From positions 62,001 through 126,000 of the forward strand of contig NZ_JACHEX010000004.1 of assembly GCF_014201655.1 (NCBI RefSeq): a stretch of DNA of 64,000 nucleotides. Direction: 5' to 3'. The notes below the pieces were generated by a model. The model did not search any database, was not told the DNA's origin, and saw nothing but the letters and a program-made list of their open reading frames with translations. This stretch comes from Thermosipho japonicus. GTDB taxonomy: Bacteria > Thermotogota > Thermotogae > Thermotogales > Fervidobacteriaceae. The translations under genes were made by a program, and so were the position numbers. How positions within the stretch are numbered: the first letter of the stretch is position 1; each line of letters opens with the position of its first letter. Below are positions 28,807 through 39,627 of this stretch, in pieces.

Positions 28807-30891
28807 GTGAAAAAGATTTTAATTTATATATTCTTATTTTTTGAAATGCTTTTGTTTTCGCAAATTAATACAAACCATTTGGAATTTTTAGGAGAAGATT
28901 TTATATTAAATGGAGAAATGGTAAGGGGATATTTTGTATATGCAGACAAAACTTCAGATGGTTATAGGAAAATTCCTGCAAAGGGTGAAGGCGATATATG
29001 TGTTGATGATGTTGCAAGAGTAGTTGTCACATATGTTGAAATGTATGAATTTACTCGAGATAGTGAATATCTTGATTTTGCAAAAAAAGCAGCAAAATTT
29101 ATTGTTCAAATGCAAGATTATGATGGGGATTTTTATAACTTTGCATATGTTGATGGTACTATAAACAAGACTGGTACAACAAGTTCAAAACAACATTCAT
29201 GGTGGGCCGTTAGAGCGTTTTGGGCTTTATCAAAAATTTCGAAATATGATTCTACATTCCTTGAATATGCTAAGAAGGCTTATGATTTACTATTTAACTA
29301 TGTTGATGCTGGATTATTAAATAGAGTGGGTGATCAAACATCAGTTTACATTCTTGGCTTGTGTGCACTATATGATTTGGGAATTGATGTTAAAAATGAA
29401 ATCAGGAATTCTGCAGATGCCATATTGGGACTTTATAAGTATGGATTTTTTAAAACTTATCAAGATAAAATACTTTGGCATGGATGGGGAAATAGGTATG
29501 TAGAAGCTCTTGTAGAAAGTTACAGAGTTTTAAAAGATAAAAAATATTTAAAATACGCAAGAAAAGCTCTTGAAATTGAAGGACCAATTTTCTTATCTAC
29601 AGGATTTATATATGAAATTTCAAACAAAGTAAAACTATTTCCTGAACTTTCTTATGCAGTTGAAAGTATTACAGTTGGAGCTATTAAATACTATCTTGAA
29701 ACAAAAGATGAAGAAATTGGTATTTTGGCTTCTCTAATGGCAGGATGGTACAAAGGGTTAAATAAGCTTGGAAAACCAATGTATGGTCCCAATGGTGAAG
29801 GATATGACGGAATGGAATTTGCTCATATAAACTATAATGCTGGTGCTGAATCAACGATATCAGCAGTTAGAACTATGTTATTTTTAGAAATGATGCCTGA
29901 TAAATTAAAGAAATTATCTGAAGGAAAGCTTTTAAAATCATATCCTCTACAAGTTTTGGAAGCAGAAGCTGGCGACTGGGGATTATCAGATGTTAAAGTT
30001 ATAGTCGATGGGAAATTTGGTGGTTCAAGTGCCCTTTCATTTGAAGATAACTTAAGACTCAAGTTTGATGTTTCACCTGGAATTTATGATGTTGTAATAC
30101 TCGGAAATGGTGGATACGATTGTACGGTTGTATATGGTAATGGTAAAGTAACTGGAACTCTAAATGGAAGTTATGTTCATCTTGGAAAATTAGAACTAGA
30201 TCAATTTAGGATTGTATTAAAAGGTACAGGGATTATTGATCAAGTAGTTTTAATTCCAGGAAAAATCGGAATTTCAACATCAGATATTTCTGTTTTATAC
30301 GAAAACGGGAAGTTAACACTCAAAAAAGAAAAAGTAGAAATTAAAGAGGTTGAAAACAATACGGAAAGTTTTGTGACATTCGAAAAATCTGACAGTTTTA
30401 TTTTGTTTAATCTTGAAAATGTTTTAAACAACAACGGAATAGCTGATTCAATAAATGAAAAGGGAAATTTTGATAACCTTGGTTCAATTCTTGGAAGTTA
30501 TCTTCCACAAGAAATAATTGAAAAGATAAAAAATTATAAAACACCATTTAAGATTTATAAAAATGGAAGTGACAATATAAGGTGTAATGGGCAAGTTATA
30601 AGGTTTAAGAGAAGATTTGTGAAAAATTTATATCTTTTAGTTGCTGCAAATCATGGAAATTATAATGTAACATTCAAAGTTAATGATAAAGATTTTGAAG
30701 TAAATGTTCCTGATTGGTGTTCTGAAAAGATTGATATTATTTCAGATTATAGATTTATTTCAACAGGAGAAAGACAATTTATTAAATGTGGTTTAAAAGT
30801 CATTAAATTTGAGATGAACGACTTGATAGATGAAATAATTCTTCCAAACGAAATAAATGTTCACGTGTTTGCCATTACAGGAGAACAATAA
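28807..30891 (+). CDS. Secreted alpha/alpha-barrel-like protein with a carbohydrate-binding-like domain
   Basis: This 694-residue protein has a signal peptide (KKILIYIFLFFEMLLFS). The first 370 residues are helix-rich with Trp and Gly-Asp motifs (CVDDVARVVVTYVEMYEFT, SKQHSWWAVRAFWAL, WHGWGNRYVEAL, DGMEFAHINYNAG), as in (alpha/alpha)6-barrel glycosidases or lyases. Residues about 378-485 (LEAEAGDWG, GSSALSFED, FDVSPGIYDVVI) look like a CBM6/35-type beta-sandwich. The C-terminal part is beta-rich and unassigned. It starts GTG 28807 behind AGAGGTGA, which overlaps the GH4 stop. As the last gene of the mannoside-type operon, it probably attacks the polymer or a side chain outside the cell. I cannot place it in a GH family. 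Confidence 0.7.
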   Translation: MKKILIYIFLFFEMLLFSQINTNHLEFLGEDFILNGEMVRGYFVYADKTSDGYRKIPAKGEGDICVDDVARVVVTYVEMYEFTRDSEYLDFAKKAAKFIVQMQDYDGDFYNFAYVDGTINKTGTTSSKQHSWWAVRAFWALSKISKYDSTFLEYAKKAYDLLFNYVDAGLLNRVGDQTSVYILGLCALYDLGIDVKNEIRNSADAILGLYKYGFFKTYQDKILWHGWGNRYVEALVESYRVLKDKKYLKYARKALEIEGPIFLSTGFIYEISNKVKLFPELSYAVESITVGAIKYYLETKDEEIGILASLMAGWYKGLNKLGKPMYGPNGEGYDGMEFAHINYNAGAESTISAVRTMLFLEMMPDKLKKLSEGKLLKSYPLQVLEAEAGDWGLSDVKVIVDGKFGGSSALSFEDNLRLKFDVSPGIYDVVILGNGGYDCTVVYGNGKVTGTLNGSYVHLGKLELDQFRIVLKGTGIIDQVVLIPGKIGISTSDISVLYENGKLTLKKEKVEIKEVENNTESFVTFEKSDSFILFNLENVLNNNGIADSINEKGNFDNLGSILGSYLPQEIIEKIKNYKTPFKIYKNGSDNIRCNGQVIRFKRRFVKNLYLLVAANHGNYNVTFKVNDKDFEVNVPDWCSEKIDIISDYRFISTGERQFIKCGLKVIKFEMNDLIDEIILPNEINVHVFAITGEQ

Positions 30892-31005: not shown

Positions 31006-31374
31006 ATGATTGAGGTTATAGAAATTATAAAGTTATTTTCAAACAAAACCAGGTCAAGGATACTGTTTTTAATTTCTAATATAGAAGTATGCAATTGTGA
31101 TATTGAAAATGTTCTTAATATAACACAATCTAATATTTCTAAACATTTAAAACAGGCTGAGTTTTTGAATTTAGTTAATAAAAGAAAAAGCTCTTATTGG
31201 ATATACTATAGTTTAAACAAGGAAATTTTAAAAAAATATAGCTTTATAAATGAGATATTAAAAGAATTAGGTAAAATTGAACCATTTAGAAAAGATTTAA
31301 AAGAATTAAAGGAGTATTTAAAAATCCTGGTAGATGTGAAAGGAGGTAAAGTTTGGCACGGAGTTTTCATCTGA
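31006..31374 (+). CDS. arsR: ArsR-family metalloregulator
   Basis: This 122-residue winged-helix repressor begins FSNKTRSRILFLISN and has the recognition region NITQSNISKHLKQAEFLNLVNKRK. The motif VCNCD (about 30-34) resembles the ELCVCDL metal/arsenite-binding signature of classical ArsR proteins, giving two nearby cysteines. ATG 31006 follows AAGAGGTGA and a strong promoter with a dyad operator. The C-terminal residues after about 112 run into the start of the truncated ACR3 gene and may be altered. Its target is presumably the adjacent, now broken, arsenite exporter. Confidence 0.85.
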   Translation: MIEVIEIIKLFSNKTRSRILFLISNIEVCNCDIENVLNITQSNISKHLKQAEFLNLVNKRKSSYWIYYSLNKEILKKYSFINEILKELGKIEPFRKDLKELKEYLKILVDVKGGKVWHGVFI

Positions 31375-31732
31375 ATATGTAACAGGAGCTGTTTTGCTTG
31401 GCGCAGCACCTTGTACAGCTATGGTTTTTGTATGGAGTTATTTAACAAATGGTGATGCCTTATATACTCTTGTTCAGGTAGCTATTAATGATCTTGTTAT
31501 ATTATTTGCTTTTGCACCTATTGTTTCATTTTTGTTGAAAGTTGGAAATATTATATTACCTTTCAAAACACTTATGTTTTCAGTAATTATTTTTGTTTTT
31601 GTTCCTTTAATTGCGGCAATAATTACAAGGAATTATGTAATTAAAAATAATGGAGAAGATTATCTTGAAAGTAGGTTTATTCTAAGGTTTTCAACAATTT
31701 CTATTAATGGTATAAATAATAATGGAGGTTGA
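31340..31732 (+). pseudogene. Truncated ACR3 arsenite exporter
   Basis: The frame reads KFGTEFSSEYVTGAVLLGAAPCTAMVFVW in overlapping pieces. It contains GAAPCTAMVF, with the conserved cysteine of ACR3-type arsenite carriers, then YTLVQVAINDLVILFAFAP and LIAAIITRNYV. ACR3 proteins have about 340-360 residues and ten helices; only about 130 remain. The first 100 or so and the last 120 residues are missing. A GGAGGT site (31342-31347) survives with no start codon in this frame, which fits a deletion soon after the original start. It overlaps the 3' end of arsR. Arsenite efflux by this protein is therefore lost. Confidence 0.85.
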
Positions 31733-32810: not shown

Positions 32811-33503
32811 TTAATATTGTAATTTATATATATCCATATTTTCAAAAATTACATATTCTAAATTTTTAAAATTTAGTACTATTTCAAGATCAGCGTTAAT
32901 TTGAACTAACGTATTGTATATTTTTCTTCTAACTTTGTCATTATATTCAATTGGCAAATAATATCCTAGTGTTACATGTGGAATGTAAAAATCATTTTGT
33001 TTGATCAAGGTATCAAATTTTTTCCTAGTATCTAATAGCAAATTTAGTTCCTCTTCATTTGTTGGAGAAAACATTATTCCAATAGCTGAACCACCATTGT
33101 AGAGACCTAAAGATTTCATCTTGATTTTTTTGATTGATTTTACTTCTTTTAGTATTTTTCTTGCTTTTTCTTTATTATTTTTCAAGCAATTTTCAATTTC
33201 TTTAGTTATATTATAATTACAAAGATCATGTAATGTCATATGAAAATATTTTTCTGATAAAGGTCGTGCTAAATAATCACCTAACAGAGAATATAATTTT
33301 TTTTGAATATTCAAAACTTTTTTTCTATCTTCTTCTTCCAAGAAAAAAATAATTGTATCCCCCTTGAAATTCTTATAGTTGCCTTTTTCATCTACTTTTA
33401 AAAAAAGTTCATTTTTTGGATTCCATTCTTTTAGTAAATTAACCAATGACTTTTCCTTCAATTCTTTTAACTTTTCAATAAATTTATCAAGATTTGGTTT
33501 CAT
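32811..33503 (-). CDS. 2H phosphoesterase superfamily protein
   Basis: This 230-residue cytoplasmic protein has the two HxT motifs of the 2H (RNA ligase/cyclic phosphodiesterase) fold: FHMTLHDL near residues 102-109 and YIPHVTLGYY near 184-193. Members act on 2',3'-cyclic phosphates or 2'-5' linkages in RNA. I chose ATG 33503 because GGAGGTGTG precedes it; the longer frame to 33632 lacks a site. It is divergent from the sugar ABC operon at 33780. The 294-base gap on its other side (32517-32810) contains no gene I can support. Confidence 0.75.
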   Translation of the reverse strand: MKPNLDKFIEKLKELKEKSLVNLLKEWNPKNELFLKVDEKGNYKNFKGDTIIFFLEEEDRKKVLNIQKKLYSLLGDYLARPLSEKYFHMTLHDLCNYNITKEIENCLKNNKEKARKILKEVKSIKKIKMKSLGLYNGGSAIGIMFSPTNEEELNLLLDTRKKFDTLIKQNDFYIPHVTLGYYLPIEYNDKVRRKIYNTLVQINADLEIVLNFKNLEYVIFENMDIYKLQY

Positions 33504-33779
33504 AACACACCTCCATAAAAGAAAGTTTTTTTCAAATTTTAGGATATAACGGAGATTATTTCCATAAAATTGAAATAAATAATATTTTTTTACAAAATTT
33601 AAATATGGTATTATCAAATTGAAACCGACCATGACTTTATTAAAAAACTATCCATCAATATTTCAGAAAAATACTAGATGATTATAAAGAATCTTGTAAT
33701 TATTTTAACATATTTGACAACATAATTTGTTTTCTAACTAATTGTATATTTCAAACTTATTTTATGAGGAGGTGGGGTT

Positions 33780-34988
33780 ATGAAAAGATTATTTGTTTTG
33801 TTATTAGTAATTTCAGTTATTATGGCCTTTAGTGTTGAAACGTTGGTTGTTAGTTCAAGACTTTGGACTCCTCCGACAGAAAAGGAATTTATTTTAAATG
33901 AGATTATCAAGCCATTTGAGAAAATGTATAACGTTAAGGTTGTTTTCCAAACAATGGATGATGAAACAATGTTGAAACAAGTTAAAGTGCAAATGGAAAC
34001 TGGAAAAATTACCACAGATGTTATTATTGCATATGCAACAAAAATGCCTGAATGGGTTAAAAACGATTTAGTTGTTGATCTTACACCTTATGTTAACAAA
34101 TGGACTGATAGACATTTTTCTAAAGGTTTTGATTCAATGACAGTATTTGATGGTAAAAGATATTTCCTTCCTGTTGGAGCAGACGTCTACCTTACTCTTA
34201 TTAATAAAAAAGCGTTGCAATATAAACCAGCTAATGTAGATATTCAAAATCTCACTTGGGAACAACTGGCAGAATGGGCTAATCTTGTTGCTCAAGGTGA
34301 AGGAGAAGGTAAGTTTGCCGTAACTGGTGTTCCAATGAAATCTCTTATTTACCAAATCGGTGCAATTTCTTTATCATATGGTGGCCATTGGCCAAATTTA
34401 GATAATCCTGGAGCAGTTGCTGCATGGTATTTGATTTATAAAATGAAAGATGCCTTTTCACCTGCAGTTAAAACATATGACGATACGAGACCTCCTATGA
34501 AGAGAGAAGAAACTTGGATGACTGTTGCACATTGTGCACGTGTTGGTGAAGTTTACAAGAGTAATCCAACTCAATTTATTATTGCACCAGCTCCAAAAGG
34601 ACCTGCGGGCATTGGTTCTGTTGCTGGCACAAGTGGACTTGCAATTGTAAAAGGAACAAAACATTTTGATATTGCTTTAAAATTCTTAGAATACATGACA
34701 AGACCAGATATCATGGTAAAATCACATAAAGGTACTGGCGGATTCATACCTCCAGTTGATGAAGCAATTAAATACTTAGGTAACGATGAACAAGACCAAG
34801 TTATTAAAAATGCTATTAAAGTTATGAATCAAGGAGTTCTTTCTTACATTGCTCCAATTTGGAAAGATTGGGGACAAGTAAAGCTTGTCTATGACGAACT
34901 TTTCAAAAAGATGATACTTGAAGAAGGAAAATTGGATGTTGATATGCTTGAGCTTTATCAACTTCAAATTGATGCACAAAGAAAATAA
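33780..34988 (+). CDS. Sugar ABC transporter substrate-binding protein (family 1)
   Basis: This 402-residue exported protein starts ATG 33780 behind GAGGAGGTGG and has a signal peptide (KRLFVLLLVISVIMAFS). Family-1 segments include LWTPPTEKEFILNEIIKPFE, RYFLPVGADVYLTLINK and GTSGLAIVKGTKHFDIALKFLEYM. It is the first gene of an operon with two permeases, an ATPase, a glycosyltransferase and an RpiR regulator. A GC-rich hairpin follows immediately, a common way to obtain excess binding protein. The ligand is not evident. A TTGACA at 33714-33719 may be its -35 box. Confidence 0.88.
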   Translation: MKRLFVLLLVISVIMAFSVETLVVSSRLWTPPTEKEFILNEIIKPFEKMYNVKVVFQTMDDETMLKQVKVQMETGKITTDVIIAYATKMPEWVKNDLVVDLTPYVNKWTDRHFSKGFDSMTVFDGKRYFLPVGADVYLTLINKKALQYKPANVDIQNLTWEQLAEWANLVAQGEGEGKFAVTGVPMKSLIYQIGAISLSYGGHWPNLDNPGAVAAWYLIYKMKDAFSPAVKTYDDTRPPMKREETWMTVAHCARVGEVYKSNPTQFIIAPAPKGPAGIGSVAGTSGLAIVKGTKHFDIALKFLEYMTRPDIMVKSHKGTGGFIPPVDEAIKYLGNDEQDQVIKNAIKVMNQGVLSYIAPIWKDWGQVKLVYDELFKKMILEEGKLDVDMLELYQLQIDAQRK

Positions 34989-35042: not shown

Positions 35043-35912
35043 TTGCCAAAGACTTTTTCGAAAAAATGGATTCCATACTTTCTCATTGCCCCAACGTTAA
35101 TCTACTACATAGTTTTTTGGTTAAGGCCAGTTGTTTCTGCAATTTACTATAGTTTTTTTGATGACAACAATGTCTTTACACTTAATAATTATTTGACAAT
35201 TTTTAGAGATGAGTACTTCAAAAAAGCTGTTATTAATACTTCTATTTTTGTAGTTATATCGGTAACTCTTGAATTTGTTGTTGCTCTTGGGCTTGCATTG
35301 ATAATTAACAAAAAATTTAAAGGTGCCCAAGTCTTATTGTCTATAGCGCTCATTCCTATGGCACTTCCTGCTGTTGCAGTAGGCGCAATGTGGTCAAGTG
35401 GTTTTGCCACATATGGATGGGTTAACAGTTTATTATACCATTTAGGATTGATTTCTGCAGATGGTAAAATTGCATTTTTAGCTGGGAATGATTTTCAATC
35501 GTTGATGTTGATAATTCTTATTGACGCGTGGCAAGTTATTCCTTTTATGATGGTTATTCTTCTTGCTGGACTTCAAGGTCTTTCTAAAGAAGCAATAGAA
35601 GCAGGGTACATTTTTGGTGGTTCAAGATTTACAGTTTTAAGAAAAATTACTTTGCCTATGCTTAAACCAAGTATTCAAACTGCTTTAATTTTAAGAATAA
35701 TATCCGCAATTCAAGTGTGGTTAATAATAGTAATGATTTATGGTTATAGAAGAATTCCTGTATTGCTAGAAGAAGTAGTATTTTATAAAGAGCAATTATT
35801 AGGTTTCTATAGAGTTGCTCTTGCCTATTCCGTTATTGTTGCTGCAATTGTTTCTGTTGTTTCAATAATTTATTTGAAAGTCTCTGGTGCCTTTGAAAGG
35901 GAGGAGCAATGA
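35043..35912 (+). CDS. Sugar ABC transporter permease (MalF/UgpA-like)
   Basis: This 289-residue six-helix permease starts at TTG 35043 behind GAGGTGATT. The EAA loop is EAIEAGYIFGGSRFTVLRKITLPMLKPS. It forms the channel with the adjacent long permease; the two genes are one base apart, with the next GGGAGGAG ribosome site lying inside the end of this gene. Confidence 0.9.
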   Translation: MPKTFSKKWIPYFLIAPTLIYYIVFWLRPVVSAIYYSFFDDNNVFTLNNYLTIFRDEYFKKAVINTSIFVVISVTLEFVVALGLALIINKKFKGAQVLLSIALIPMALPAVAVGAMWSSGFATYGWVNSLLYHLGLISADGKIAFLAGNDFQSLMLIILIDAWQVIPFMMVILLAGLQGLSKEAIEAGYIFGGSRFTVLRKITLPMLKPSIQTALILRIISAIQVWLIIVMIYGYRRIPVLLEEVVFYKEQLLGFYRVALAYSVIVAAIVSVVSIIYLKVSGAFEREEQ

Positions 35913-35913
35913 T

Positions 35914-37194
35914 ATGAGAGTAAATAAAATTTTAAAACAAACACTTTTTTATCTTGTTGTTGCTGGAATTATTCTTGTAATATTAACTCCGATATACTTT
36001 TTAGTAGTAATTTCACTAATGTCGGACCAGGAAGCTTACGATTGGCCTACTCAATTAGTACCTTCTTTTTTTAATAATTATAAACTTGAAATAGTTGACG
36101 GAAAATTTTTGATCAGCGTTTATAGTTCTGCAAAGAAAAAATATTCTACACTAATTAAAACAAATGATTTTGAAGAATTGCAAAAATTTGTAAGGAATAA
36201 AACAAATTCAACTATAAAGAAAGGAATATTTGATATTCAGGTTAAAAAGCTGAATGAATTGATAAGTAAAAACAGTGAAGAAATAAGCAATTTAAGAAAC
36301 CAAATTGCAAGTTTAGAGTCTAAATTAAATACAGTAACGGTTAACCTAGTAAGATATAAAACTCAATTAGAAAAGGCAAAAAAAGCTAATATGAATAATT
36401 TAATTTCAATAATTAATGAGAAAATTATTGAATTTGAAAATGAAAAGAGAGAATATGAAAAACAAATAAAAAAGTTGAGTGAAAGACTTGATGAAATAGG
36501 TTCTGTAAAATTTTCAGTTTCTAAGCATTTATTTGATAATTATGTTAATTTTTTCAGAGTAACAAGTGATGCTCTTCCAGCTCTATTTAGAAGTATTCAA
36601 GTAGCAATTTTAACTGTTCTTATTTCCTTAACTATTGGTGGAATGGCAGGTTATGCATTTGCAAGATATAATTTTAAAGGGAAAAATTTGCTGAAGTTGA
36701 GTGTTCTATTTGTGAGAATGTTTCCAGGAATTTCAATTGCAATGCCAATGGTTATAATTCTTATAAATATGGGATTTTATGATAAGCCTATTGGTCTTTC
36801 ATTAGTTTATTCTGTTGGGCAAATTGGAATGACAATATGGATAACAGCAAGTATTTTTATGGGAATTTCTAAAGAATTAGAAGAAGCTGCTATGATATTT
36901 GGAACAACAAGGTGGGGAGCATTTTTTAAGGTTACATTACCTCTGGCACTTCCTGGATTGGCAGCAAGTGCAATGTATGCCTTCATAGGTAGTTGGTCTG
37001 AGACTGCTCAAGCAATTGTTTTAACTCAGTTTAATCCTACCTTTCCGGTTGTTGTCTATCAAACACTTGTAGGTGCAAAAGGATTAATAAATTTGACTGC
37101 TGCTGGGGGTGTTTCACTTGCACTTCCTGCTGTTATTTTTACCCTGATTATTAGAAGGTACATTTTGCAAATGTGGGGTGGAGTAAAAGTATAA
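35914..37194 (+). CDS. Sugar ABC transporter permease (MalG-like) with coiled-coil insertion
   Basis: This permease has 426 residues, about 150 more than a normal MalG-type partner. The first helix (about 10-35) is followed by a polar extracytoplasmic region. Residues about 105-197 are a strongly predicted coiled coil (KLNELISKNSEEISNLRNQ, then ASLESKLNTVTVNLVRYK and further heptads) before the normal core resumes at NYVNFFRVTSDALPALFRSI. The EAA loop (EEAAMIFGTTRWGAFFKVTL) and the C-terminus (RRYILQMWGGVKV) are normal. I chose ATG 35914 behind GGGAGGAG. The insertion faces the periplasm, where it could reach the binding protein, the peptidoglycan or the toga. Confidence 0.9.
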   Translation: MRVNKILKQTLFYLVVAGIILVILTPIYFLVVISLMSDQEAYDWPTQLVPSFFNNYKLEIVDGKFLISVYSSAKKKYSTLIKTNDFEELQKFVRNKTNSTIKKGIFDIQVKKLNELISKNSEEISNLRNQIASLESKLNTVTVNLVRYKTQLEKAKKANMNNLISIINEKIIEFENEKREYEKQIKKLSERLDEIGSVKFSVSKHLFDNYVNFFRVTSDALPALFRSIQVAILTVLISLTIGGMAGYAFARYNFKGKNLLKLSVLFVRMFPGISIAMPMVIILINMGFYDKPIGLSLVYSVGQIGMTIWITASIFMGISKELEEAAMIFGTTRWGAFFKVTLPLALPGLAASAMYAFIGSWSETAQAIVLTQFNPTFPVVVYQTLVGAKGLINLTAAGGVSLALPAVIFTLIIRRYILQMWGGVKV

Positions 37195-37222: not shown

Positions 37223-38320
37223 ATGGCTACACTTGAGCTTATAAATCTTTCAAAAAGATATGGGAAGAATGTTTGGGGAGCAAAAAATGTAAATCTTAAA
37301 GTAAATAATGGAGAGTTTATAGTTTTTCTAGGACCCTCTGGGTGTGGAAAGACAACTACTTTAAGAATGATTGCAGGGCTTGAAGAAGTTACTGAAGGAA
37401 AAGTGATTATTGATGGTAAAGATGTAACATATTTAGAACCAAGAAAAAGAGAAGTTAGTATGGTTTTTCAAAGCTATGCGGTTTGGCCTCATATGACAGT
37501 ATATGATAATATTGCATTTCCATTAAGATTAAGAAAAATGCCTATGGATGAAATTGATAAAATTGTCAAAGAAGTTGCTGAAATGGTAAAAATCGAAGAA
37601 CTTCTAAAAAGATTTCCATCCCAATTATCTGGTGGACAAAGACAAAGAGTTGCTCTTGCTAGAGCTCTTGCAGTAAAACCAAAAATATTTTTAATGGATG
37701 AACCACTTTCAAATTTAGATGCAAAATTAAGAGTTAAAATGAGGACAGAATTGAAAGCAATACACCATAGAACAGGAGCTACTACCATTTTTGTTACACA
37801 TGATCAATCAGAAGCAATGTCTATGGCAGATAGAATAGTTGTTATGAGGAATGGTAAAATAGAACAAGTTGGAACGCCAGATGATGTTTATTTTTACAGT
37901 GCAAATGTATTTGTTGCTGGTTTTATTGGAACACCTCCTACAAATTTCTTTAAAATGAGTATAGTCAGAAATAACGGAGAAATACATTTGAAAAATAATT
38001 ATATTGACATTAAAGTATCAGAAAAAATTAAAAATGTAATTGAAGAATACAATAAAAACGAAATAATTGTAGGAGTACGCCCTGAAAATTTGCTTATAAC
38101 TGATGATGAAAAAAATGCTATTTTTAGGGAGAAAATTTTAGTTGTTGAGCCTCAAGGTTCTCACCAAGTTATTGCTGTTGAATTGGGAGATCAAATTGTA
38201 AAAATCGTTGCACCAGCTTTCCCAAAATATTCTGCTGATCAGATCATTAAGGTAACATTGGACCATGAAAGAATGATGCTGTTTGACGTTGATACAGAAA
38301 GTAGATTGGAGGGAATTTGA
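37223..38320 (+). CDS. Sugar ABC transporter ATP-binding protein (MalK/MsmK/UgpC type)
   Basis: This 365-residue ATPase has Walker A GPSGCGKTT (about 38-46), a Q-loop in FQSYAVWPHM, signature LSGGQRQRVALARAL, Walker B IFLMDEPLSNLDAK and the switch histidine in FVTHDQ. A C-terminal MalK-type regulatory OB domain follows (VGVRPENLL). MalK-like ATPases of this class often serve several transporters, so this one could also energise the ATPase-less operon at 21-31 kb. It starts ATG 37223 behind AAAGGAGAG. Confidence 0.93.
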   Translation: MATLELINLSKRYGKNVWGAKNVNLKVNNGEFIVFLGPSGCGKTTTLRMIAGLEEVTEGKVIIDGKDVTYLEPRKREVSMVFQSYAVWPHMTVYDNIAFPLRLRKMPMDEIDKIVKEVAEMVKIEELLKRFPSQLSGGQRQRVALARALAVKPKIFLMDEPLSNLDAKLRVKMRTELKAIHHRTGATTIFVTHDQSEAMSMADRIVVMRNGKIEQVGTPDDVYFYSANVFVAGFIGTPPTNFFKMSIVRNNGEIHLKNNYIDIKVSEKIKNVIEEYNKNEIIVGVRPENLLITDDEKNAIFREKILVVEPQGSHQVIAVELGDQIVKIVAPAFPKYSADQIIKVTLDHERMMLFDVDTESRLEGI

Positions 38321-39627
38321 TGAAAGTTGCACTGGTTCACTATAGAGCTGGTTTAATGGACGGAGTATCACTTGAAATGGAAAAATGGAAAAAGGTATTA
38401 AAAAGAATGGGGCATGAAGTTGATATAGTAGCAGGGAATAACAAAGAAGGTGTAGATGTTGTTGTTACATCGATTGGTTTTGAAAATCCAAAATATAGAT
38501 TAATAAATAAAAATGCTTTTGAAAGACTTGAAGATTTTGATATAAATGGATTATTGAATATAATTTTTGAAGAAAGTGATAAAGTTTATAATGACATTGT
38601 TCACGTTCTTAAAAAGTATGATGTAATTATTCCAAATAATATTTGGTCCTTAGGAGCTTTTTTGCCATCAGCGATTGCGCTCTTTAGATTTGCTAAAGAA
38701 CATTCAGAAAAATTATTCATAGGACATCATCACGATTTTTGGTGGGAGAGAGAATATTTTTTGAATTATACAGATGAAAAGATTAAAGAACTTTTAGAAA
38801 TGTATTGTCCTCCACTTGGTGATAATATAAAACATGTTGTGATAAATTCACTTGCTAGGAATGCTCTATATTTGAAAAAGAATGTTGAATCTACAATTGT
38901 ACCAAATGTAATGGATTTCAACGAACCTCTATTTACAAATGAAGATGTAAATTTAAAAATAAGAGATGCATATAATATATCTGAAAATTCGATTGTTCTA
39001 CTTCAGGCTACTAGAATAACAGAAAGAAAAGCAATTGAATTGGCAATTGAACTGGTTAATCAGATGTCAAAACTTTCTAAAAAATATGTTGGTAAAAAAT
39101 TATATAATGGGAAAATATTTAACGGAGAAATAGCTTTAGCATTTTCTGGAATGTGTGAAAGTGAAAATTATAAATACAAATTATTAGATTTGGCATTTAA
39201 ATATGGTATTCGTACAATAGATCTTTATCCTAATGTTGAGAATAAAATATGGACTTTTTGGGATTTGTATAGTGTTGCAGATGCTATTACATATCCATCT
39301 ATTCTTGAAGGTTGGGGGAATCAATTGCTAGAAGCAATTATTGTAAAAAAACCTATAGTTTTATTTGAATACAAAGTTTTTGAATCTGACATAAAAATGT
39401 CAGGACTAAAATATATAAGCCTTGGAAATAGTTATTTCAAAAAAGATGGTTTGGTTAATGTCGATGAAGGAATTGAAATAAAAGCTGCTGAAAAATTGTT
39501 TGAAATTTTGTTTGATAAAGAATCGTATGAAAAAACTGTAAATGAAAATTTTGAAATTGGTAAGAAATTTTATAGCTTGGAGAGTTTACAAAAAATTATT
39601 CAAGGTATTTTAAATGATAAAGTATAA
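38320..39627 (+). CDS. Glycosyltransferase (GT4-like, GT-B fold)
   Basis: This 435-residue cytoplasmic protein begins MKVALVHYRAGLMDGVSLEME, the usual first strand and glycine/aspartate turn of GT-B glycosyltransferases. It ends with a donor-binding region YPSILEGWGNQLLEAI, a variant of the ExxGxxxxEA motif of family GT4. The segment GHHHDFWWEREYF is distinctive. Its ATG shares one base with the ATPase stop (TGATG), so it is translationally coupled to the sugar transporter. It may use the imported sugar or make a related compatible solute, but no product can be named. Confidence 0.78.
   Translation: MKVALVHYRAGLMDGVSLEMEKWKKVLKRMGHEVDIVAGNNKEGVDVVVTSIGFENPKYRLINKNAFERLEDFDINGLLNIIFEESDKVYNDIVHVLKKYDVIIPNNIWSLGAFLPSAIALFRFAKEHSEKLFIGHHHDFWWEREYFLNYTDEKIKELLEMYCPPLGDNIKHVVINSLARNALYLKKNVESTIVPNVMDFNEPLFTNEDVNLKIRDAYNISENSIVLLQATRITERKAIELAIELVNQMSKLSKKYVGKKLYNGKIFNGEIALAFSGMCESENYKYKLLDLAFKYGIRTIDLYPNVENKIWTFWDLYSVADAITYPSILEGWGNQLLEAIIVKKPIVLFEYKVFESDIKMSGLKYISLGNSYFKKDGLVNVDEGIEIKAAEKLFEILFDKESYEKTVNENFEIGKKFYSLESLQKIIQGILNDKV

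Follow-up and report, generated by a model that had tools for sequence, protein, structure and literature searches.

The MalG-type permease encoded by Thermosipho japonicus at 35914..37194 carries, between its first two membrane helices (TM1 and TM2), an insert of two nested parts: an older α/β domain of ~60 residues and, within it, a coiled coil of ~75–80 residues confined to Thermotogota. The permease belongs to a CUT1 importer linked to a mannosylglucosylglycerate synthase (MggS), and its coiled-coil hairpin is tentatively taken for a stiff spacer or a guide post. The window is a stretch of 64,000 nucleotides of contig NZ_JACHEX010000004.1, in which the operon and the parts of the insert are arranged as follows.

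33780..34988, + strand: substrate-binding protein (SBP), SBP_bac_8/SBP_bac_1 (Pfam 109 bits), signal peptide lacking a lipobox cysteine; conserved as the operon's first gene
35043..35912, + strand: MalF-type permease of 289 aa without a large P2 loop (BPD_transp_1 48.7 bits; six hydrophobic segments)
35914..37194, + strand: MalG-type permease, 426 aa, whose periplasmic insert comprises the nested domain and the coiled-coil arm
36064..36216, + strand: predicted small periplasmic α/β domain, residues 51–101 (AlphaFold2, block pLDDT ~86–91; L014, an orthologue without the coil, has the same elements)
36217..36504, + strand: predicted antiparallel coiled-coil hairpin, residues 102–197 (AlphaFold2, paired heptad insertions in orthologues L112 and L115, conservation)
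37223..38320, + strand: MalK/UgpC-type ATPase (ABC_tran 132 bits, OB_MalK, TOBE_2)
38317..39627, + strand: MggS (NF041101 756 bits, cut-off 640)

The permease gene was judged a real open reading frame. Its ATG at 35914 lies one base past the MalF stop codon and is preceded by a strong Shine–Dalgarno sequence (gggaggag). BPD_transp_1 is the only Pfam domain found (61 bits, cut-off 26.4, residues 241–413); together with the EAA loop ELEEAAMIFGTTRWGAFFKVTLPLALPG and the joint encoding with an SBP, a MalF and a MalK-type ATPase, it places the protein among the MalG components of CUT1 systems. MalG is also its best curated neighbour, but the score against the NF008231 equivalog is 81.3 bits with a cut-off of 261; judged by its sequence, the permease is therefore MalG-like and no maltose equivalog of the E. 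coli type. A hydropathy scan places TM1 at 15–33 and the following membrane segment at 223–241, leaving ~180 aa between them. These results bear out the initial annotation, which had described a MalG-type permease with an arm between TM1 and TM2. Its figure of about 150 extra residues stands as regards a large insert and needs correction in detail: the alignment to the E. coli MalG profile starts at residue 221, equivalent to profile position 82, which gives ~139 extra residues, and these form two nested parts. The best PDB matches come from the permease's own family, namely SugB of the mycobacterial SugABC and MalG of the E. coli MalFGK2. Both have a short TM1–TM2 loop and lack the arm.

The topology is read from the distribution of charges. 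The N-terminus before TM1 (MRVNKILK) is positive, an acidic stretch follows TM1, and the loop past TM2 (RYNFKGKN) is positive and rich in K and R; the EAA loop shares the side of the N-terminus. This pattern argues that the insert lies outside the cytoplasmic membrane, in agreement with the periplasmic arm proposed at the outset. A cytoplasmic coil was also considered and is ruled out by the charges and by the side of the EAA loop.

AlphaFold2 models residues 51–205 with confidence (block pLDDT ~80–95) as a β-β-β-α…β domain bearing an antiparallel hairpin (103–196). The small domain is predicted to consist of strands 53–61, 64–71 and 76–83, helix 86–97 and a last strand at 198–204. The hairpin is built from helices 103–119, 121–157 and 161–196 (block pLDDT ~90–95), kinked at the invariant N120 and turning at a tip of about residues 158–162, which includes M160; the coiled coil that had been placed at 105–197 agrees with these helices. 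In the Thermosipho permease both arms contain zero proline and zero glycine, and their hydrophobic periodicity (3.4–3.65) was equalled by 62 and 65 of 2000 shuffles. In three orthologues the periodicity of arm 1 was equalled by 0, 1 and 8 of 2000 shuffles, and arm 2 of two orthologues has none. The predicted hairpin thus has a heptad seam along both arms with reversed chain direction, the periodicity of arm 2 being weak in some orthologues. At 1.5 Å per helical residue, the 37-residue arms would measure ~5.5 nm, or at most ~8 nm if helix 103–119 is counted.

Structure searches with the core returned permeases only and those with the arm generic coiled coils only. The N-terminal arm of seryl-tRNA synthetase, for example, is an equally long antiparallel two-helix coiled coil (VIA Z 11.9, 0.7 Å, 75 residues), but it belongs to an unrelated protein and has a generic shape. 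Since many unrelated two-helix coiled coils score alike, the match confirms the hairpin shape only. A search with the coil-less model gave the small domain no fold name, which is not proof of novelty, and Pfam has no domain match inside the insert of this permease or inside the inserts of the longer permeases of the same genome. In both the long and the short form the membrane core is modelled poorly, probably owing to a thin alignment; in the T. japonicus model, built on 19 sequences, many blocks have a pLDDT of 30–60. The model thus does not fix the direction of the arm relative to the membrane or the SBP.

The division of the insert into two parts follows from the orthologues, which came from a scan of species genomes and a second scan of the phylum Thermotogota. 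The initial annotation had proposed a search for permeases sharing the insertion; among the orthologues found here, the coil occurs in those of Thermotogota only. It is present in all intact ones found (18 aligned, 426–451 aa; broken or frameshifted copies in draft contigs are L021, L029, G022 and G041), and it is absent from the ~345–368-aa orthologues of Spirochaetota, Atribacterota and Chloroflexota, which do have the small domain. In the alignments, residues ~45–101 and 198–215 are common to both sizes, while ~105–190 occur in the Thermotogota forms only. The coil-less orthologues (L014–L028) share the operon and the small α/β domain, and their core is 66–76% identical; where the Thermotogota forms have a coiled coil, they have one helix of ~10 residues. 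Accordingly, the AlphaFold2 model of L014 shows the same elements with helix 101–110 in place of the hairpin. In one Spirochaetota sample, the orthologue was found in 1 of 60 genomes, namely the seed genome, so that the gene is patchy there. In three genomes, two from Spirochaetota and one from Clostridium, MalG frames are mostly 273–426 aa, with one of 604.

In a core-only tree, a single, well supported branch (99/96) separates the 18 long forms from the rest, and their nearest coil-less relatives are Atribacterota and Chloroflexota forms. The simplest reading would be a single gain of the coil in the Thermotogota line. Among the long forms, identity to the T. japonicus permease is 83–96% in the core, 31–84% in the small domain and 19–61% in the coil. 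Nevertheless, the seam positions I124, L127, L138, L152, L192 and I195 are kept, N120 is invariant, and the residue at tip position 160 is M in 14 sequences of the 18, F in three and I in one. In L112 and L115 both arms are longer by exactly seven residues in matching register, so that the hairpin stays paired; all other length changes are of one or two residues and fall at the tip. Rough dN/dS values from six close pairs, with synonymous sites near saturation, are 0.14–0.31 for the coil and 0.02–0.05 for the core. Together, the kept seam and length and these ratios point to purifying selection on the coil that is weaker than on the core yet real, mostly for shape and length.

The operon order SBP–MalF–MalG–MalK–MggS suggests what is transported. 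The MggS product pathway yields a sugar compound that protects against heat and salt. Where contigs reach far enough, loci of Thermotogota, Spirochaetota and Chloroflexota again show the SBP–MalF–MalG–MalK set with an MggS-type glycosyltransferase nearby; the synthase is found at nearly all loci of sufficient length, L010/L112 (same contig) being among the few exceptions. At more distant loci it scores 312–444 bits, under the equivalog cut-off, so that its exact product there may be another. We define here an MggS-linked transporter family by the small domain and a nearby gene for an MggS-type synthase, and the T. japonicus permease has both. No glucosyl-3-phosphoglycerate synthase scores above cut-off in the T. 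japonicus genome. Together with the neighbouring genes, this makes a substrate such as glucosylglycerate plausible. The importer would take up glucosylglycerate or a related glyceric-acid glycoside, which MggS would then mannosylate; alternatively, it may recover the MggS product.

Several neighbours deserve mention. In other phyla, genes for a β-1,2-mannobiose phosphorylase and for a GH38 member akin to mannosylglycerate hydrolase also lie beside the synthase. The divergent gene at 32811–33632 (− strand) has a weak match to the 2'-5' RNA ligase superfamily; its product is kept beside the operon in many Thermotogota at 32–59% identity, a similar-looking frame exists in Anaerolineales (L017, 7643–8248), and it is possibly a conserved member of the mannosylglucosylglycerate cluster. 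Further upstream, 28807–30891 encodes 694 aa with a signal-peptide-like start and weak matches to D-glucuronyl C5-epimerase and GH127, and 31006–31732 holds an ArsR-type regulator followed by a 112-aa frame, which we take to resemble the C-terminal part of the Acr3 arsenite permease and which is perhaps a truncated gene. A congener (genome G080) has two copies of the whole operon (L103 and L104), ~10 kb apart and in opposite orientation. In some Spirochaetota the MggS-type glycosyltransferase is fused to an N-terminal HD domain, as seen in L028 (9267–11348); a frame of about the same length exists in L024 (9184–11199).

Large hydrophilic regions between TM1 and TM2 were described in 2008 for MalG1 and MalG2 of Thermotogales, encoded in the mal1 and mal2 operons of T. 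maritima; they comprise ~500 residues, have no known function and were reported from Thermotogales only (PMC2246101). In our search, 31/31 Thermotogota genomes contained an open frame of 790–922 aa that matches MalG, and the initial statement that importer permeases rarely carry such an arm was thus overstated. The T. japonicus permease resembles MalG1 and MalG2 in having a large hydrophilic TM1–TM2 region, but those are proteins of ~800–900 aa from another MalG subfamily, in which the partner MalF carries a P2 loop; with 426 aa and a segment of ~180 aa, it falls outside their size class. Given the different subfamily and an arm born inside an older domain, it appears to be a distinct and smaller instance of the long-insert habit of Thermotogota. 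Our literature search on coiled-coil arms in MalG found nothing beyond the same report (PMC2246101).

Four further permeases of the T. japonicus genome have far larger TM1–TM2 inserts (~260–580 residues). Two of them are MalG types, with 803 aa (L091, 2222–4630) and 721 aa (L088, 2421–4583), one is of the OppC/DppC type (845 aa; L090, 7013–9547), and the fourth has 543 aa (L089, 2236–3864). The inserts of the 803-, 721- and 845-aa permeases contain several stretches with 3.5-residue periodicity. Coiled coils, for their part, match one another by composition. That Thermotogota repeatedly and independently gave MalG-type permeases (426, 721 and 803 aa) rigid helical periplasmic arms, an accessory of sugar importers throughout the phylum which would position soluble SBPs or complexes in a toga-type envelope, is a speculative idea and rather improbable at present.

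As to the role of the arm, we favour, with less than even confidence, a stiff spacer or guide post. By prediction and comparison, the TM1–TM2 loop holds a family-wide small α/β domain, one helix of which was extended in Thermotogota, probably once, to form a rigid antiparallel hairpin projecting into the periplasm. Beside the transporter mouth, its length and direction would outweigh its surface: it would most likely hold neighbouring envelope material or complexes off the docking face, or keep the soluble SBP close to that face, and any contact at the tip would be small. The kept length and seam, combined with a freely changing surface, favour this reading over a long binding surface. On the other hand, low surface conservation is equally expected of a functionless, tolerated insertion.

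A docking arm that grips the soluble SBP, as the P2 loop of E. coli MalF does, is a possible though less probable alternative. The MalF of the operon lacks P2, the SBP looks soluble and could benefit from a tether, and the length of the arm roughly equals the height of a docked binding protein; the nearly always hydrophobic position 160 counts in the same direction and could be a real contact. The earlier suggestion that the arm holds the binding protein retains some merit. However, the SBP is 63–92% identical among Thermotogota loci and the coil falls to 19%, unlike an extended interface, which makes a long SBP-binding surface less likely, and the coil-less orthologues of other phyla retain the same SBP–MalF–MalG–MalK set.

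Somewhat less probable still is a tolerated, largely passive lengthening of a surface helix, which might make the protein more stable at high temperature. The fast divergence of the coil and the long insertions in other Thermotogota permeases would agree with it, but the presence of the arm in all intact Thermotogota orthologues found, its maintained length and seam, the invariant Asn and the purifying selection all speak against mere tolerance. That the arm braces the importer against peptidoglycan, as was also raised initially, or against some other part of the envelope (the toga) is improbable: the coil is limited to a phylum with an unusual envelope in which larger MalG insertions are universal, but Pfam shows no peptidoglycan-binding domain, no partner was seen, and ~5.5–8 nm falls short of the periplasmic width usual in diderms. 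The same arm length makes the initially proposed bridge across the wide Thermotogales periplasm unlikely.

Large periplasmic regions of MalG were already known in Thermotogota; the coiled-coil arm on a MalG of ~426 aa is a new form of them. It offers a small, well-modelled example of these extensions, and the natural coil-less orthologues provide controls with which the role of the arm is directly testable. Beyond the arm, the permease belongs to a transporter family tied to mannosylglucosylglycerate-type synthases across several phyla.
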